A DNA stretch of 64,000 nucleotides from assembly GCA_009782555.1 (NCBI GenBank), contig WRIV01000002.1, forward strand, positions 62,001-126,000. Direction: 5' to 3'. Positions within the stretch are counted from its first letter, which is position 1, and the number at the start of each line of letters is the position of its first letter. Below, piece after piece: positions 1 to 61,254 of this stretch. A program made the position numbers and the translations under genes. This DNA is from Treponema sp. GTDB lineage: Bacteria; Spirochaetota; Spirochaetia; Treponematales; Breznakiellaceae. The notes under the pieces were generated by a model. The model was not told the DNA's origin and made no database searches. It saw nothing but the letters and a program-made list of their open reading frames with translations.

Positions 1-1455
1 AGATTCCAACTTACAGCGTCGGAGCAGCGCGCCGAACGTATAAAACTGGATGCGATAAAAGAAGCTGAGGCTAAAAAGAAGGAGATTCTTCTTGAAGCAA
101 AAGAACAAGTTATCCGAGAACGAAACCAGCAAGAGAGGGAAACCCGGGAACGCAGGGCCGAATTGCAGCGGTATGAACGCCGCGTTGTACAGAAAGAAGA
201 GGTTTTAGAGAAAAAAACTGATCAAGTTGAAAAAAGTGAACAACAGAATGCTGAAAAAAGCCGGAAAATTGCCGAGCGGGAAGCAGAGCTGGATAAGGAA
301 GAAGAACGGTACCGCAGGGAGTTGGAGCGGATTTCCGGCCTAACGGTAGAGGAAGCAAAGGCGCTGATCATAGCGGATCTGGAAAATGACGCCAAACACG
401 ATGCCCAGGTTCTGATCAACAAAATTGAACAGGAAGCCAATCTCTCGGCGGAAAAAAAAGCCCGGGATATCCTGGTAGCCACCCTACAGCGGCTTGCCAC
501 AGAAGTAACCGGGGATGTAACAGTGGCGGCCGTTACCCTTCCCAATGACGAGATGAAAGGCCGGATCATAGGCCGGGAGGGCCGGAATATCCGGACCCTG
601 GAAACTCTTACGGGGGTAGATCTTATCATTGACGATACGCCGGAAGCGGTGGTCATTTCCTGTTTTGACCCCGTCCGGCGGGAAATCGCCCGGGTCAGCC
701 TGGAGCGGCTCATCGTTGACGGCCGAATCCACCCCGCCCGAATCGAAGAGGTGGTTTCCAAGGTCAGCAAGGATATCTCCCAAAAGATTTTTGAAGAGGG
801 CGAAAAAGTTCTTTTTGATATAGGGATCCACAATATCAGCCAGGAAGCTATCCGATCCCTGGGACGGCTTCATTTTCGTACCAGCTACGGCCAGAATGTC
901 CTGGCTCATTCCAAAGAAGTGGCAATTATCGCCGGGGTACTGGCGGCAGAGTTGGGAGTAAACCGGGATCTGGCCAAGCGGGCCGCCCTGCTCCACGACA
1001 TTGGCAAGGGCGCAGAATCCGATTCGGATCAGAATCATGCGGAAATCGGCATGGATATGACCCGCAAGATGGGAGAAGACCCTAGGGTAATCAACGCCGT
1101 GGGGAGCCACCACAACGACATAGAACCTTCCTGTATTGAGTCGGTGCTGGTACAAATTGCCGATGCCATCAGTGCTGCCCGGCCTGGCGCACGGAAAGAA
1201 ACCCTGGACAACTACATCAAACGGCTGGAAAATCTGGAAAACATCGCCGCCGGCTTTAACGGCGTGAACAAAGCTTTTGCCATCCAGGCCGGGCGGGAAC
1301 TCCGGATCATCGTCAATAACGATGCCGTCAATGATGACCAAACCAAGTACCTGGCCAAGGATATAGCCAAAAAAATTGAAGAAGATCTCCGCTATCCTGG
1401 CCGGATTAAGGTAACGATCATCCGGGAGACCAGAATTACGGAATACGCAAGGTAA
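1..1455 (+). CDS. rny: Ribonuclease Y, 5'-truncated by window edge
   Basis: Endoribonuclease Y starts mRNA decay at the inner membrane. The frame is open from base 1, so the N-terminal membrane anchor lies outside the window. What is visible is a long charged coiled coil (bases 1-500, rich in E, K, R and Q), then a KH RNA-binding domain with GRIIGREGRNIRTLE (about 550-600), then an HD domain with the metal ligands in LLHDIGKG (about 990-1015) and GSHHND (about 1100). The order coiled coil-KH-HD and the C-terminal ending match the family. It converges on the nuclease gene, with a GC-rich hairpin between them. Confidence 0.96.
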   Translation, partial: RFQLTASEQRAERIKLDAIKEAEAKKKEILLEAKEQVIRERNQQERETRERRAELQRYERRVVQKEEVLEKKTDQVEKSEQQNAEKSRKIAEREAELDKEEERYRRELERISGLTVEEAKALIIADLENDAKHDAQVLINKIEQEANLSAEKKARDILVATLQRLATEVTGDVTVAAVTLPNDEMKGRIIGREGRNIRTLETLTGVDLIIDDTPEAVVISCFDPVRREIARVSLERLIVDGRIHPARIEEVVSKVSKDISQKIFEEGEKVLFDIGIHNISQEAIRSLGRLHFRTSYGQNVLAHSKEVAIIAGVLAAELGVNRDLAKRAALLHDIGKGAESDSDQNHAEIGMDMTRKMGEDPRVINAVGSHHNDIEPSCIESVLVQIADAISAARPGARKETLDNYIKRLENLENIAAGFNGVNKAFAIQAGRELRIIVNNDAVNDDQTKYLAKDIAKKIEEDLRYPGRIKVTIIRETRITEYAR

Positions 1456-1463
1456 TTGCAAGC

Positions 1464-1509
1464 GGGCCGGCGCTTGTGCTGCCGCAAAAAGGCAGCGCAG
1501 CACCGGCCC
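1464..1509. terminator. GC-rich hairpin between convergent genes
   Basis: GGGCCGG at 1464-1470 pairs with CCGGCCC at 1503-1509, and inner segments (GCTGCC/GGCAGC) extend the stem around an A-rich loop. It lies between the stops of rny and the nuclease gene. There is no clear T run on either side, so a role as a bidirectional terminator is inferred. Confidence 0.45.
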
Positions 1510-1520
1510 AGAAATTGCTG

Positions 1521-2162
1521 TCAGATGCTGTCAAAGGCTCCCCCAACAACCTGATGGATGTCAATTTCATATATAAGATCACCTTCCTCATTATATACCC
1601 TTCTTTTGAAATTTAAGGGAACCTGTATGCCGTTTATGTTTTTATCACTGAATTCATCCACAATAATTACTACCTTAACAATAAAATATTCTACCGCTAA
1701 TTTTCTGGTTTCATTTTCTGTTTTTAGCCATGTTTTTCTATTTACATCTGGTGTCTGGGGCCAAATATTGGCAATAAAAAAAGTCATCAGCGCGTTTTCA
1801 CGGGTATCATTAAAATCTGCATTTGGCGCCATGTGGCCCCTGTCATATCCGGAATTAGTATAATCACCATGTTCGGGAAAAGAATACCCGTTTTCGTTCA
1901 AAAGATTCTGTAATATTCCTCCATCCCTGTCTTGTGTAAATGTTGTATTGGGCCGCCTTACCGATTCTCCTTCCAGCCGCTCCTTTGTCAAAAAGTAAAC
2001 AATTAAATGGGGTCCCTTATGAACTGCATCATAACATCCTGTATAAAGCACCCTGTCTTCATTCGAAACCTCAAAATCAAAATGCCCGGGTAAATCACAG
2101 GCAAAGGCATAAGACAGGAAAAAGAAAAACAACAAAAAGAAAAACGCTTTTGCCTTGCTCAC
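1521..2162 (-). CDS. Secreted DNA/RNA non-specific endonuclease
   Basis: A 213-residue protein with a strongly hydrophobic signal peptide (residues 5-20, ending near a cysteine). It carries the beta-beta-alpha metal nuclease motif YDRGHMAPNADF, in which the histidine is the general base, followed by a conserved Asn-rich helix (FIANIWPQTP). This is the NucA/Serratia nuclease family; the enzyme is probably exported and cuts DNA and RNA outside the cytoplasm, for nutrition or defence. The start is GTG. It overlaps the thrC stop as GTGA, so translation is probably coupled to thrC although the two functions are unrelated. Confidence 0.9.
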   Translation of the reverse strand: MSKAKAFFFLLFFFFLSYAFACDLPGHFDFEVSNEDRVLYTGCYDAVHKGPHLIVYFLTKERLEGESVRRPNTTFTQDRDGGILQNLLNENGYSFPEHGDYTNSGYDRGHMAPNADFNDTRENALMTFFIANIWPQTPDVNRKTWLKTENETRKLAVEYFIVKVVIIVDEFSDKNINGIQVPLNFKRRVYNEEGDLIYEIDIHQVVGGAFDSI

Positions 2163-3683: not shown

Positions 3684-4076
3684 ATGGCTGAAAAAGTAGA
3701 AAAAAAGACAATCCTAGCTGTGGATGATATGGCGGTTAGCCTGACTACAATCCGCACGATCCTCCAGCATGAGTACGATGTCAGACTGGCTAAATCGGCA
3801 ACCCTGGCGCTGGAAATGCTTAAACAGGTAAGGGTCGATCTAATTCTTTTGGATATCGAAATGCCTGAAATTTCCGGGCTGGAATTTGTGGGACTCTTAA
3901 AGAAAAGCCCTGAACTAAAAGCCATTCCGGTGATCTTTGTTACCAGCCATGCAAACCCTCAGTTTATCGATCAAGCCATGGCCTTTGAAGCGGAGGGGTA
4001 CATCGTAAAACCCTTCATTCCTGAAGCATTAATTAAGCGGGTAAAATCTGTCCTGGGTGAAGAAGGCAAAGAATAG
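3684..4076 (+). CDS. Stand-alone CheY-like response regulator
   Basis: A single receiver domain of 130 residues with no output domain. Visible are the acidic pair DD in ILAVDDMAV, the phospho-acceptor aspartate in LILLDIEMPE, the T/S switch in FVTSHA and the conserved lysine in YIVKPF. Such proteins act by protein-protein contact, for example in chemotaxis or phosphorelay. No kinase gene is adjacent, so the partner cannot be named. The start fits a leaderless transcript (see the promoter at 3650-3677). Confidence 0.92.
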   Translation: MAEKVEKKTILAVDDMAVSLTTIRTILQHEYDVRLAKSATLALEMLKQVRVDLILLDIEMPEISGLEFVGLLKKSPELKAIPVIFVTSHANPQFIDQAMAFEAEGYIVKPFIPEALIKRVKSVLGEEGKE

Positions 4077-9039: not shown

Positions 9040-9885
9040 ATGAAGACAATTGCCTGCATAGGGGCCGGAAATATGGGGACCGCCTTAATGAAAGGCGCCG
9101 TCGGCAAGGCCAAAATCGGCTTTGCTGATACCTGCAAAAACATGGCAAGGAACGCCGCCAAAACTGTGGGAGGTACGGTATTTGCCTCCAACATTGAAGC
9201 GGCCAAAACCGGCGATTTTGTTTTTCTGGCCCTGAAACCCCAGGTGCTGCCTGCGGTACTGGAAGAAATTTCCCCGGTGATCCGGGAGAGGATCGCTTCC
9301 GGCAATCCGGCGGTACTGGTATCCATGGCGGCGGGCTGGTCTATCGGCAAAATACAAACCCTTGTAAGCGGCTTCGAAATGAACGCCGCCGTCAAAGTAC
9401 CACAGGCTTCACTGCCGGTGGTACGAATCATGCCCAATACGCCGTCCTTGATTTCCCAGGGAATGATTGTCTACAGCGCATCCAAAAAAATTCCCCCCGC
9501 AAAACTTGCGGAACTGGAAAAAATGCTCTCCGGCGCAGGATCGACGGATCAAGTGGACGAAAAATTTTTGGATGCCGTTACGGGCCTTTCCGGATCAGGG
9601 CCCGCCTTTGTGTACCAATTTATCGAAGCCCTGACGGACGGCGGAGTGCTGGCGGGATTACCCAGAGATAAGGCTCTGCGCTACGCCGCACAAACCGTAC
9701 TAGGTGCCGCCGCCATGGTACTGCAAACGGGAAAACACCCGGGAGAACTAAAAGATATGGTAACCTCCCCCGGAGGTACCACCATTCAGGGAATATCTGC
9801 CCTGGAGCAGAGCGGTTTCAGGGGATCGGTTATATCCGCTGTGGAGGCCGCCTGGAAACGGGCCCAAGAGTTGGGAAAAGCATAA
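9040..9885 (+). CDS. proC: Pyrroline-5-carboxylate reductase
   Basis: Last step of proline synthesis, NAD(P)H-dependent reduction of pyrroline-5-carboxylate. The N-terminal Rossmann motif is IGAGNMGTALMKGA, VRIMPNTPSLI sits mid-protein, and the ProC signature of the C-terminal helical domain is VTSPGGTTIQGISALE. It has 281 residues, normal for the family. It follows proB by 32 bases, giving a proB-proC pair with a second promoter before proC. Confidence 0.96.
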   Translation: MKTIACIGAGNMGTALMKGAVGKAKIGFADTCKNMARNAAKTVGGTVFASNIEAAKTGDFVFLALKPQVLPAVLEEISPVIRERIASGNPAVLVSMAAGWSIGKIQTLVSGFEMNAAVKVPQASLPVVRIMPNTPSLISQGMIVYSASKKIPPAKLAELEKMLSGAGSTDQVDEKFLDAVTGLSGSGPAFVYQFIEALTDGGVLAGLPRDKALRYAAQTVLGAAAMVLQTGKHPGELKDMVTSPGGTTIQGISALEQSGFRGSVISAVEAAWKRAQELGKA

Positions 9886-26116: not shown

Positions 26117-28030
26117 TTATATTGTCCTTGCTGCATTCAGTATAGCGATTAACGCCACCCCTACATCGCCTATTACCGCCGCCCAAAGCGGAGCATAACC
26201 CAGAGCGCCCAGCACAAGGAGTGCCGCCTTGGCGCCCAGGGCAAACACAATGTTTTCCCTGACGATAACGGCGGTTTTTTTTGCCGTCTCCAGGGCCCCG
26301 GTAATTTTGGAAAGTTCGCCGCCCATTAATACCAGGTCCGCCGATTCTATCGCCGCATCAGAACCCATACCCATGGCGATCCCAATATCGCTGGATGCCA
26401 GTACCGGAGCGTCGTTGATTCCGTCTCCCACAAAAATCACCTTGTCCCGGTTTCCGAAACAATTTTTTTCCCGGCCCCGCTGCGTTTCCTTTTTCAATTC
26501 CTCTAGTTTTTCCACTTTTTCCCAGGGAAGGAGTTCCGCATAAAAACTGCCTATCCCCGCGGCCTCCGCCACTGCCCCGGCAGCATCCGCCGAATCACCG
26601 GTTAACATCACCGTCCTGAGCCCCCTGGCATGGAGGGCTTCCACGACGGCCCTGCTGTCCTCCCTTAATTCATCCCCAATAACAAGACGCCCCGCATATA
26701 CTCCATTCACCGCCGTATATACCATGGTCATCCCCTCATTTCCCTCCGGCGCCGTTATTCCCGCTTCCGCCAAAAAGGATCGGTTCCCCGCCAGGATCGT
26801 CTGTCCGGTTTCCGCCTGAAACAGAACTCCTTTACCGGCGGTTTCGCTGTAAGAACGAATCTTTTCCGCCGGAAACGCCGGCCCGGCCAAACCTTTTTCG
26901 CCGACAGCTTCCTGGATCGACAGGGCAACGGGATGGGTGGAATTACTTTCCGCCAAAGCGGTCAGGCGGAGCAGTTCTTCAGGACTAAAACCGGAGGCAG
27001 GAAACACTTGAACAACAGAAAAAGTTCCCCTGGTTAGGGTACCGGTTTTGTCGAATACTACCATTCCCGCCCGGTTAAGGGCATCCAAGTAATTGCCTCC
27101 CTTAACGAGGATTCCCCTTCGGGAGGATCCGCCGATGCCGCCGAAAAAACTAAGAGGGATGGAAACCACCAGGGCGCAGGGGCAGGATATCACCAGAAAA
27201 ACAAGAGAGCGCCGGATCCAAACATCAAAAGCATCTGCACCGAGAATAAGAGGCGGCAACACCGCCAGGAGGACCGCAGAAAAAACCACCGCTGGAGTAT
27301 AGTAACGGGCAAAACGGGCAATGAATTTTTCCGCCGGAGCTTTTTTTTCTTCCGCTTCCCTGACCAGTTTTAGTATCCTGGCTGCCGCCGATTCACCGGC
27401 CTCCCTTGTTGTACGAATGGTCAGGAGTCCTGAAAGATTAATCATCCCCGCCAGCACTTCGCTTCCCGGTCCGGTCCGACGGGGAAGGGATTCCCCGGTC
27501 ATGGCGGAAGTATCCATCTGAGAATTGCCCTCTTCTACCACACCGTCCAGAGGGATTTTTTCGCCGGGCCTTACGGAAATAAACTCCCCTATCCGGACTT
27601 CGTCAGGACTCACCTGCATCAAGTTACCATCTCGGTTGACAAAGGCATGATCGGGGCGCAGATCCATAAGGCCGGTGATGGATCTGCGGGATCGCCGTAT
27701 TGCCAGGTCCTGGAAAAATTCTCCTGCCTGGTAAAAGATCATCACCGCCGATCCTTCGGGATACTCGCCTATGGCAAAGGCTCCGATGGTTGCAGCGGTC
27801 ATAAGAAAGTGTTCCGTAAAAACCCTGCCTCGTATCATATTCTGAGGCACCTGGATCATCACATCGGCGCCCGAAAGGATCCATGCGGCGAAAAAAAGAA
27901 TCTTTTCTGCCCTGGCCGGAAATCCGGCCGGGGCAGAGGCGAAGGCTGCGGCAAAACAAAAAAGCCCCGCAAACTGGGCCGTTCGTTTTAGTATTTCAAT
28001 CTTGGGTAATTCCTTGGGTAATTCAATGAT
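26117..28030 (-). CDS. P1B-type heavy-metal-exporting ATPase (non-AUG start?)
   Basis: A metal pump of the CadA/ZntA kind. Visible are the phosphatase loop TSAMTGESLPR, the metal-binding SCPCALVVSIP in the sixth membrane helix, the phosphorylated aspartate in VFDKTGTLTRG, the P1B HP signature in STHPVALSIQ, and GDGINDAPVLASSDIGIAMG. There is no N-terminal metal-binding domain. A GTG at 27862 would delete the first membrane pair; the frame stays open upstream and encodes fitting hydrophobic helices (AGLFCFAAAFASAPAGF, KILFFAAWILSGA) back to AUC-AUU at 28030-28025, six bases after a strong -10. I therefore extend it to 28030. Probable substrates are Zn, Cd or Pb. Confidence 0.85.
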   Translation of the reverse strand: MIELPKELPKIEILKRTAQFAGLFCFAAAFASAPAGFPARAEKILFFAAWILSGADVMIQVPQNMIRGRVFTEHFLMTAATIGAFAIGEYPEGSAVMIFYQAGEFFQDLAIRRSRRSITGLMDLRPDHAFVNRDGNLMQVSPDEVRIGEFISVRPGEKIPLDGVVEEGNSQMDTSAMTGESLPRRTGPGSEVLAGMINLSGLLTIRTTREAGESAAARILKLVREAEEKKAPAEKFIARFARYYTPAVVFSAVLLAVLPPLILGADAFDVWIRRSLVFLVISCPCALVVSIPLSFFGGIGGSSRRGILVKGGNYLDALNRAGMVVFDKTGTLTRGTFSVVQVFPASGFSPEELLRLTALAESNSTHPVALSIQEAVGEKGLAGPAFPAEKIRSYSETAGKGVLFQAETGQTILAGNRSFLAEAGITAPEGNEGMTMVYTAVNGVYAGRLVIGDELREDSRAVVEALHARGLRTVMLTGDSADAAGAVAEAAGIGSFYAELLPWEKVEKLEELKKETQRGREKNCFGNRDKVIFVGDGINDAPVLASSDIGIAMGMGSDAAIESADLVLMGGELSKITGALETAKKTAVIVRENIVFALGAKAALLVLGALGYAPLWAAVIGDVGVALIAILNAARTI

Positions 28031-28036
28031 GAAACC

Positions 28037-28066
28037 AGCATAGTCCTAAACTAAAGTTTGTGTCAA
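28037..28066 (-). promoter_or_regulatory. P1B ATPase promoter with palindrome in the spacer
   Basis: Minus-strand TTGACA (28061-28066) and TATGCT (28037-28042), 18 bases apart. The spacer contains the inverted repeat AAACT-TT-AGTTT (28048-28059), placed where a metal-sensing repressor or MerR-like activator would bind. No regulator gene is adjacent. Initiation about six bases after the -10 would put the transcript start at the AUC codon. Confidence 0.65.
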
Positions 28067-28137: not shown

Positions 28138-30156
28138 ATGGCAAAAAACAGCAAAAACCGGCTCATCGGAGCGGCAATTCCCGTGGGAGCCCTGCGCAGC
28201 GGCAAAAATACCGGAGTGGGAGAATATCTTGATCTTATTGAATTTGCTGAGCTTTGCGTTGATATGGGAGTGGGACTGATTCAGATACTTCCAGTCAACG
28301 ATACGGGCTACGAAAGCTCCCCCTACAGCGCCCTGACCGCATTTGCCCTGCACCCCCTGTATATCAGATTAAGCGCCATGGAAGAAGCTGCACCGTTTTC
28401 GAATGAAATTGAAAAACTGGGAAAAAAATTCGAAGGGGAAACCCGTTTTCCCTATTACCAGATACTGTGTGCAAAAATGGAACTTTTACGAAAAATCTAC
28501 AGGGAGAACAAAGAGACCGCCGAAAAGGATCCAGAACTTGCCCGATGGATAAAAGAAAATTCATGGGTCAGGGCCTATGCGGTATTCCGCAGGTTAAAGG
28601 AGTCCAACGAAGAAAAAAGCTGGAAAGAATGGAAAAACCACCGCCAGGCAAGTGCGGAAGATATCAACAATCTCTGGGATGATCCCGTCCTAAAGGAGGA
28701 GCACCTTTTCTGGGCCTGGCTGCAAAAAGCCCTGGCCCGGCAGTTTTCCCAGGCCGCCGCTGCCATTCGGGACCGGGGTCTTTTGCTCGAAGGGGATCTC
28801 CCGATTTTAATGAACGAAGATTCTTGTGACGTTTGGGCTAATCCTGGAATATTCCGTTCCGATTTATCCGCCGGAGCACCCCCTGATATGTACAGTCCCG
28901 AAGGCCAGAACTGGGGATTTCCCATCTATAATTGGGAAGCCCAGGCCAAAGACAACTATAGCTGGTGGAAGGGACGGCTTAAGGAGGCAGAAAAATACTA
29001 CGCTGCCTACCGGATCGATCATGTGCTGGGCTTTTTCCGCATCTGGGCTTCTTCCCGGACGGATAATACTTCCATCCTGGGCCGGTTTGCTCCCTATATA
29101 CCGGTAACCAGGAAGGATCTGGAAAAGCTTGAATTCAACGGGGATCGAATACGCTGGCTTTCCAGACCCCATGTCCCATCGAAAGAAATATGGGACGGCA
29201 TACGGCAGAATTGGGGCAGTTCAACCTCGGCGGGGGAAATTGCCGCAGAAGCGGAACAGGTCTTTGATCGGGCACTCTCCCGGATCGGCAGTGAGGAATT
29301 GTGGTTTTTTAAGGAAACCATCAAGGGAGAAAAAGATATCGCCCGCCTGGGTCTCCACCCCGCGGCGGAAAAAACACTGACCCGGGCCTGGCATAACCGG
29401 CTTTTTTATGAATATGAAGAAGGGAAATTTTTTCCTTCCTGGTACTACCCCAATTCAACGGCCTGGGACTCCCTCTCGGAAAAGGAACGGGAAACTCTGG
29501 AAAAACTCATCATGGAACACAGGATCGAATCGGAAAAAATCTGGGAAAAGGAAGGAATGAAGCTTCTTTCGGTCCTCACCGAATCTTCTTCCATGCTTCC
29601 CTGTGCAGAGGATCTGGGCGCCGTGCCGGAATGCGTACCCCTGGTTCTTTCCCGGCTGCACATTTTGGGTCTGAGGGTAATACGGTGGTGCCGCAGATGG
29701 GATAAAAAGGACCAGCCCTATATACCCTTTGAAAACTACCCTGAACTGTCGGTCTGCACGACTTCGGTTCATGATAGTTCCACCCTGAGGGAATGGTGGA
29801 ATACCGAGGCGGACCAGGAAATTTTTGCGGGCTTTATCGGCGTGCCCTCGCTGCCAAAAGTGTACAATCCCGGCACAGCAAAGATCATTCTAAAGCATAC
29901 CGCCGCTGCCGCTTCCCGGTTCCGGGTTTTCCAAATCCAGGACCTGCTCCACCTGTCCCAAAAATGGTATGCCGCCGATCCCGCCTCGGAACGGATCAAT
30001 GTGCCCGGTACCGCCAACGCCTTTAACTGGACATACAGAATTCCTGCTCCCATAAGCAAGATCCGGGGAGACAGCGATTTTATCCAAAGCGTCAGGGACC
30101 TTGCGGGGACCCCCGTCAAAAAAACTGCCGGCGAATCGATGAGACAGCCTGAATAG
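28138..30156 (+). CDS. malQ: 4-alpha-glucanotransferase
   Basis: Glycoside hydrolase family 77 amylomaltase, which transfers maltosyl units between alpha-1,4-glucans. GH77 landmarks: GVGLIQILPVNDTGYESSPYS, LPILMNEDSCDVWANP, the nucleophile region YYAAYRIDHVLGFFRIW, MLPCAEDLGAVPECV (acid/base) and TTSVHDSSTLREWW. At 672 residues it is longer than the typical 500-residue MalQ, with inserts in the middle third. AGGAGGGG precedes the ATG and a TATACT -10 lies at 28115-28120. No other glycogen gene is in the window. Confidence 0.93.
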   Translation: MAKNSKNRLIGAAIPVGALRSGKNTGVGEYLDLIEFAELCVDMGVGLIQILPVNDTGYESSPYSALTAFALHPLYIRLSAMEEAAPFSNEIEKLGKKFEGETRFPYYQILCAKMELLRKIYRENKETAEKDPELARWIKENSWVRAYAVFRRLKESNEEKSWKEWKNHRQASAEDINNLWDDPVLKEEHLFWAWLQKALARQFSQAAAAIRDRGLLLEGDLPILMNEDSCDVWANPGIFRSDLSAGAPPDMYSPEGQNWGFPIYNWEAQAKDNYSWWKGRLKEAEKYYAAYRIDHVLGFFRIWASSRTDNTSILGRFAPYIPVTRKDLEKLEFNGDRIRWLSRPHVPSKEIWDGIRQNWGSSTSAGEIAAEAEQVFDRALSRIGSEELWFFKETIKGEKDIARLGLHPAAEKTLTRAWHNRLFYEYEEGKFFPSWYYPNSTAWDSLSEKERETLEKLIMEHRIESEKIWEKEGMKLLSVLTESSSMLPCAEDLGAVPECVPLVLSRLHILGLRVIRWCRRWDKKDQPYIPFENYPELSVCTTSVHDSSTLREWWNTEADQEIFAGFIGVPSLPKVYNPGTAKIILKHTAAAASRFRVFQIQDLLHLSQKWYAADPASERINVPGTANAFNWTYRIPAPISKIRGDSDFIQSVRDLAGTPVKKTAGESMRQPE

Positions 30157-58988: not shown

Positions 58989-59110
58989 TATACATATATT
59001 AAGCATAATATATGGCGATAACCGCTCATAAGCAGTAATCCCATGATTACCAAAAACTCTTCCAAAAAAGAGCCGTTTCTGTAATAATGAAACCGTCCCG
59101 GAAATTTTAA

Positions 59111-59138
59111 CATTCCAAAGGAATGGGGATGGTATGAT
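59111..59138 (+). promoter_or_regulatory. MCP promoter with overlapping palindrome
   Basis: TATGAT (59133-59138) is the likely -10. The palindrome CATTCC-AAA-GGAATG (59111-59125) covers the -35 position, as a repressor or activator site would. The message would have a very short leader with AAGGAG before the ATG at 59154. Confidence 0.5.
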
Positions 59139-59153
59139 AACAAGGAGCATATT

Positions 59154-61254
59154 ATGGCAATCCGTACTTCAATAAGGCGCAGATTAATGCTCTTTTCGCT
59201 TATTTTATTTCTGGTGATTTTTATCGGCGGAAGCACAGCTTTTATTCTTTCCACATGGCAGATTGCCCATATCAACGCGGGGCAGGAACTGGCGCGGGCG
59301 GTGGAAATTGAGCGGATCAAACTGGAATCGTCTGTAAACAGCGAAATTACCGTGGCCCTAAAAATGGCCGATTCTCCAATTATTCAGGCATACTTCGCCA
59401 ATCCCGGAGATCCGGAACTGGAAAAAATCGCTTTTAGCGAAATTGGCGGGTATCGCAGGGCTTTTGCAAGTAATTCGGTTTTCTGGGTTAATGACGCAGA
59501 CAAAAAGTTTTATTCCGATGATGCCTATGCCTTTACGCTTGATGTTGATGACCCCAATAATTATTGGTATTTAATGACATTGTAATGAAACGGAACGCTA
59601 TAATTTTAATATAAATTATAACCCCGACCTCGATGTTACAAATCTTTGGATCAACGCGCCTGTTTTTGATTCCTCCCATAGACCCATTGGCATTTTAGGA
59701 ACCGGTGTCGACCTGTCAGTATTTATCCATGCCATGTACGATGACTATACAGGCAATGCAGATCTGTACTTTTTTAACGCAGAAGGCGAAATAACAGGCG
59801 CAAAAGATTCTTCGCTCGTGGCCGACAAGGTTCTTGTAGAAAAAGAATTTGGCACCATTGGCGCAGAAATTATTGCCAAGTCCAAGCTAATGAACTCCAT
59901 GGAGATTCAATATTTTGATATGCCCGGAGAAGTAGCCGCCCTTGGCAAGGTCCCCACCCTGGACTGGCATATTGCCGCTATTCTTCCCATAACCATTGCC
60001 GATTCCCTGAACAGCAGCATGACGGTAATTTTTACAGCGATGATGGCAATTATCGCCGCAATTTTCATCATCTTCTATGTGTTTATTACCTGGCTAATGA
60101 AACCTCTTAACGTAATGGTGTCAACTCTTGACCAAATTTCCGCCGATTGGGATATGACCCGGCGGCTTAATGTCAGACAGAAAGACGAGATAGGAAATTT
60201 GGGAGATTTTTTTAACCTTACTTTTGATAAATTCGGAGGGCTCCTTAGGGGCATCAAAAATAAAGCTTTTACCCTTTCAGATACCGGCGACGAATTGAGC
60301 GCCACCATGGATGAAACCTCCCGGGCAATTACAAAAATTGATGCAGAAATCCAGAAAATGCGGAAAATGGTGTTATCCCAAGTTGATGAAGTAAACGGCT
60401 CGGTGGCATCAATGGAACGGATTATCGCGGGACTGGTCAGTCTTAACAGCCAAATCACCATCCAGGCGGAAAGTGTATCACAGTCCTCGGCGGCTATTGA
60501 ACAGATGCTGGCAAGTATAGGTTCAGTAACAGAAACCTTGATGAAGAATTCAACAAACATCAGTTCTTTGGCGGAATCTTCTGAAGCCGGGCGAAGCGGC
60601 CTGCAAAAAGTTTCCGAGGACATTCAGGAGATCGCCCGTGAGTCGGAGGGGCTCTTGGAGATTAATTCGGTAATGCAGAACATTGCCAGCCAGACTAATC
60701 TTCTTTCCATGAACGCCGCCATCGAAGCAGCTCATGCCGGGGATTCAGGAAAGGGTTTTGCCGTAGTAGCGGACGAGATCCGCAAATTGGCGGAAAATTC
60801 CAGTACTCAATCAAAAACCATCAGTGCCGTACTTAAAAAAATAAAAACCTCTATTGACGCCATCACTATGTCCACCAGTGTTGTGCTGGGACGTTTTAGC
60901 ACTATTGAGCAGGAAGTAAAAACGGTGTCAAATCAAGAAACACAGATACGCTGCGCGATGCAGGAACAGGAAACCGGCAGCCAAAAAATTCTGGAAGCGG
61001 TTATGCGGCTTAATTCAGTTACCGGCGAGGTTCAGCGCGCTTCTTCCGATATGTCGCTTACCAGCAAAGATGTGTTAAAGCAAAGTACCAAGCTTAAACA
61101 GATTAGCGGTAATGTGGCGGGTGAAATGGATGATGTAACACAGAACGCTGAAATGATCACCAGCGCCGTTACCCGTGTGCTGGAAATAAGCCAGGAAAAC
61201 AAAGAGAATATCAGCAGCCTGACTTCCGATATCGCCCGGTTTAAGGTTGAATGA
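59154..61254 (+). pseudogene. MCP gene with single frameshift in the sensor domain
   Basis: Treponeme-type chemoreceptor: TM1 (LMLFSLILFLVIFIGGSTAF), dCache sensor, TM2 (near 60030-60090), HAMP and signalling hairpin with tip [20 protein letters not shown]. The reading frame stops at TAA 59583-59585 after NNYWYLMTL and resumes in another frame with [15 protein letters not shown]. Inserting one base there (TTG TAT AAT GAA) would restore a continuous Cache domain, so a base was lost or miscalled. The second part has an internal ATG at 59734 but no membrane-proximal start, and would lack half the sensor if made alone. Confidence 0.8.

Follow-up and report, generated by a model that had tools for sequence, protein, structure and literature searches.

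The window, i.e., the whole stretch of 64,000 nucleotides of Treponema sp. DNA that we analyzed, contains on its minus strand an open frame for a metal-transporting ATPase, together with a promoter-like sequence, several candidate initiation codons, and a divergently oriented neighboring gene. The features considered below are the following (coordinates are those of the window).

26117..28045, minus strand: open frame encoding a P1B ATPase of the ZntA/CadA type that lacks an N-terminal HMA domain (matches to TIGR01525, TIGR01512 and 4umv)
27851..27964, minus strand: first two membrane helices (residues 24-61), homologous to relatives
27860..27862, minus strand: GTG, the first canonical start codon, inside helix 2
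27998..28000, minus strand: ATT, an alternative near-cognate start led by a Shine-Dalgarno (SD) motif, which would give (M)EILKRTAQFAGLFCF
28001..28024, minus strand: 12-bp tandem duplication, GAATTACCCAAG twice, read in frame as ELPK-ELPK
28011..28015, minus strand: AAGGA, an SD-like motif arising where the two copies of the duplication meet, at a distance of 10 nt from ATT 28000
28025..28027, minus strand: ATT, the next in-frame near-cognate codon
28028..28030, minus strand: ATC, 6 nt after the -10 box, where transcription is expected to start and a leaderless gene would have its start codon; proposed site of a lost ATG
28037..28042, minus strand: -10 box TATGCT (4/6), a hexamer identical to that of the leaderless receiver-like gene at 3684 on the plus strand
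28061..28066, minus strand: -35 box TTGACA (6/6)
28138..30156, plus strand: divergent neighbor, a malQ-like 4-alpha-glucanotransferase (named from its sequence character)

The frame belongs to the ZntA/CadA-type P1B ATPases, as judged from profile matches above the curated cut-offs and from a full catalytic core. The TIGR01525 match has an E-value of 7e-160 and 533 bits (cut-off 346), the TIGR01512 match has an E-value of 2e-142 and 475 bits (cut-off 313.5), and comparison to the structure of a Zn-transporting ATPase (4umv) yields an E-value of 2e-103; the catalytic motifs TGES, CPC, DKTGT, HP and GDGIND are all intact. With the P1B-2 ATPases of this type (TIGR01512/TIGR01525; 4UMV), the gene shares the core, the CPC metal site, the catalytic motifs and, by homology to relatives, the first two helices, whereas it lacks an HMA domain, a canonical start codon and the upstream arsR that its nearest relative has. 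The two extra N-terminal membrane helices characteristic of the type are thus present, and they are encoded by the stretch that has no start codon. The frame is complete at the 3' end (stop at 26117), and no lesion besides the missing start was found in the ORF of ~620 codons; because the ORF is otherwise intact, with all catalytic motifs, any loss of the start must be recent. The frame and the divergent malQ-like gene are less than 100 nt apart, and a split upstream HMA gene was rejected for this reason.

The frame is open from 28045, just downstream of the stop codon TAG at 28048-28046, and contains no ATG, GTG or TTG between this stop and GTG 27862. The start-less stretch comprises 61 codons in total, and ATC 28030 lies 56 codons upstream of GTG 27862; a scan of the frame bore out the observation of the first-pass annotation that it stays open over these 56 codons without any of the three start codons. 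Residues 23-61, almost all of which precede GTG 27862, match the relatives (E of about 4e-6 in a small set). A start at this GTG would remove the first helix and cut into the second, in a part where the relatives match. Because homology to the relatives begins well upstream of GTG 27862, the start of translation is expected somewhere from 28045 to about 27964. Either a start other than ATG, GTG or TTG must be used upstream of ~27964, or the gene must be improperly translated, or the sequence must be wrong.

The 5' end of the frame is preceded by TTGACA, an 18-nt spacer, TATGCT and the 6 nt GGTTTC, which are followed directly by ATC 28030 and ATT 28027. This promoter matches the consensus in 10 of 12 positions and shares the top score with one other among the five promoter-like sites in 4.8 kb, a number of sites that does not exceed that in shuffled sequences (5 vs 4.3). 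From the consensus match, the predicted +1 is the A of the in-frame ATC 28030. Of 55 ORFs with an upstream promoter of at least 10/12, 5 have an ATH codon at +1 irrespective of frame, so that its in-frame occurrence by chance is ~3%; given a good promoter, the in-frame ATC at the leaderless position is therefore suggestive, not conclusive. Counted from 28030, the leader ahead of the first helix core would have about 21 residues; the closest relatives have 13-14, a difference that speaks against a start lost at this codon. The genome contains the full promoter sequence just once; within its spacer (28060-28043, minus strand) is a short, perfect palindrome, AAACT-TT-AGTTT, that could be an operator.

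We then compared this arrangement to other genes in 1.26 Mb of the same genome (the window together with L113-L132 and L134-L173), counting promoters that match in at least 9/12 positions and end 6 nt before the first ATG, and using the mean at gaps of at least 9 nt as the expectation. There are 34 first ATGs among 921 with a promoter exactly 6 nt upstream, compared to about 3.6 expected (Poisson P about 1e-21), and an earlier 464-kb sample has the same 6-nt peak. Two codons are enriched at the leaderless position, ATG (31 vs 3.8 expected) and GTG (5 vs 0.7); ATC (3 vs 2.1), ATT (2 vs 2.5), ATA, CTG and TTG are not, and no second leaderless gene of the ATC/ATT type was found in the 1.26 Mb. 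The leaderless interpretation offered by the first-pass annotation is thus well supported as a genome-wide class with the -10 box exactly 6 nt before ATG, and ATC 28030 lies exactly at that position. The 6-nt gap noted earlier as common to the ATPase, proC and a receiver gene was confirmed, and both comparison genes are genuine, with the arrangement TTGACA-16-TATGCT-6 nt-ATG for the receiver-like gene at 3684 and TATACT-6 nt-ATG for proC at 9040, which matches P5CR_dimer. It should be noted that leaderless transcripts are common in the transcription start site map of Leptospira interrogans (PMC5243855), where the same placement of the -10 box puts the transcription start on the start codon. 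Such genes form a large class in the genome analyzed here as well, whereas the predicted 5' codon of the ATPase mRNA is AUC and not AUG or GUG. The class may be shared by two family members, in samples too small for a claim.

Start-less leaders of at least 56 codons are not rare (20/396 ORFs). In the four long-leader ORFs with a recognized domain, this domain does not begin until after the first start codon, whereas in the ATPase the homology extends into the start-less part; as these four start normally, we rejected the idea that the other long start-less leaders represent a hidden non-AUG class. Coding-potential scoring of the leaders recovered prfB and apparent frame lesions, and found no second clean start-less gene. 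The homologous N-terminus of prfB (release factor 2; L146:14673-15779, plus strand) lacks a canonical start, consistent with the known programmed frameshift, and its recovery provided the scan with a positive control. The methyl-accepting chemotaxis gene in the window (59091-61254, plus strand) is represented by two frames (59091-59585 and 59578-61254), with an apparent single-base lesion near 59578. A YhcG-type nuclease gene (L160:12467-13042, plus strand) is apparently split by a one-base frame lesion. For an RsmB/F-type rRNA methyltransferase (L156:725-1549, minus strand), the N-terminal part that shows homology contains no canonical start in the frame; on the far side of nine consecutive A's there is an ATG in a different frame, which points to an error, a frame lesion or slippage on poly(A).

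The closest relatives of the ATPase (G145, G144, G023 and G016) have 60-67% identity and likewise lack the HMA domain; the best of them, with about 63-64% protein identity over the full length, is too distant for the ancestral start codon to be read from it. Comparison of start codons among relatives, as suggested by the first-pass annotation, returned ATG, mostly with SD, in a different gene context, and the relatives with a readable N-terminus use ordinary starts. In G016, the ATPase gene follows an ArsR regulator (PF01022), and the end of an arsR-like gene is readable upstream of the ATPase in several other relatives; no ArsR-family gene was found in the present genome (85% complete). The ATPase gene appears to have lost its regulator and now to have its own promoter. 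Neither the ATPase gene nor ogt was found to adjoin malQ in the 11 malQ loci of relatives examined, which have short flanks.

The start of infC depends on leadered, SD-type initiation. Non-canonical starts have been verified for infC (AUU in E. coli, AUC in Streptomyces) and for Streptomyces sigR (GUC), which resemble the ATPase in being intact genes without ATG, GTG or TTG at the start (PMC5472188). However, sigR has an extensive SD (AGGAGGTG), whereas in the ATPase the SD is absent or badly spaced and a non-canonical start would be a prediction from sequence. In the infC gene of this genome (L133, about 1380-2030, minus strand), the apparent start is TTG behind AAGGAGG, not AUU or AUC. We assign about a third of the total probability to functional non-AUG initiation, at 28030/28027 or at 28000. 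The latter variant, in which AUU 28000 is a functional SD-led start in the manner of E. coli infC, with transcription from ~28030, a 30-nt 5' UTR and the N-terminus MEILKRTAQFAGLFCF, is unlikely. Ahead of the first helix, the presumed mRNA contains no SD-like motif other than AAGGA at 28015-28011, the resulting leader of about 11 residues before this helix is close to the 13-14 of G145 and G023, and infC sets a precedent for AUU/AUC starts (PMC5472188). However, AAGGA-to-ATG spacing in this genome peaks at 6-9 nt (21, 21, 23 and 15) and is at background (2) at 10 nt, the distance found here; the codon located 7 nt from AAGGA is AAG; and the motif owes its existence solely to the 12-bp duplication, which is found nowhere else in the genome. 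A genuine leaderless start at AUC 28030 (or AUU 28027), with deliberately low and possibly IF3-controlled expression, is also unlikely, despite the exact fit to the leaderless spacing of the genome, the intact coding region and the preservation of the frame by the duplication. Leaderless mRNAs appear to require AUG (PMC5622118), or AUG/GUG in the case of mycobacteria (PMC9094748); together with the enrichment of ATG and GTG, but not ATC and ATT, at +1, this suggests that AUC is a poor start, and the 1.26 Mb contain no other gene of this kind. Efficient leaderless initiation at a 5'-AUC(AUU), contrary to the accepted AUG/GUG requirement and acting as a built-in throttle of the metal pump, is less probable still.

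Two further explanations retain a canonical start. A frame lesion or sequence error might hide the true start: ATG 28041 is one frame off and would require an indel between it and ATC. Single-base frame lesions in the chemotaxis gene at 59578, in the YhcG-like gene and in the RsmB/F-like gene beside its A9 run are in line with such an event; however, ATG 28041 falls within the -10 box, it lacks an SD at a suitable distance (AGGA 28047 lies 2 nt from it), and the only run between it and ATC is TTT. This explanation is improbable. A uORF from ATG 28041 (17 codons, ending with TAA) combined with frameshifting or reinitiation into the ATPase was rejected, as the transcript is expected to start downstream of this ATG and there is no slippery heptamer. 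Initiation at GTG 27862 or ATG 27859, resulting in a shortened ATPase without the first helix pair, is very improbable. Although these are the first canonical codons of the frame, they sit within a conserved helix, helices 1 and 2 are homologous to those of the relatives, and neither a promoter nor an SD precedes them (no SD motif was found anywhere from 28010 to 27850).

We tentatively prefer the explanation that a leaderless gene has had its AUG changed to AUC, in which case the start was lost recently, the allele is strongly weakened, or the consensus sequence is in error. Under start loss, the gene of the Zn/Cd-exporting P1B ATPase would have its own promoter and give rise to a leaderless mRNA, with transcription predicted to begin at 28030 and with a first codon that should be the start. 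Codon 28030 would have changed from AUG to AUC, most likely by a recent substitution and less likely through an assembly consensus error, and the resulting allele would be newly silenced, or weakly expressed via inefficient AUC/AUU initiation. We infer the ancestral ATG because no sequence is closer than about 64% full-length protein identity. The sporadic single-base lesions in other genes of this genome were counted in favor of start loss. The first-pass annotation had left a choice between a working AUC/AUU start and a start codon lost by mutation; the latter fits better, whereas the former is not supported, given that neither ATC nor ATT shows enrichment 6 nt after the -10 box.

If the start has simply been lost, the ATPase gene would be a clean, ordinary example of such an event, in which automatic annotation would wrongly trim the first membrane helices. 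Actual use of AUC or AUU would go against the view that a leaderless mRNA has to begin with AUG or GUG. The leaderless class with its exact 6-nt spacing is useful for calling gene starts in this lineage.
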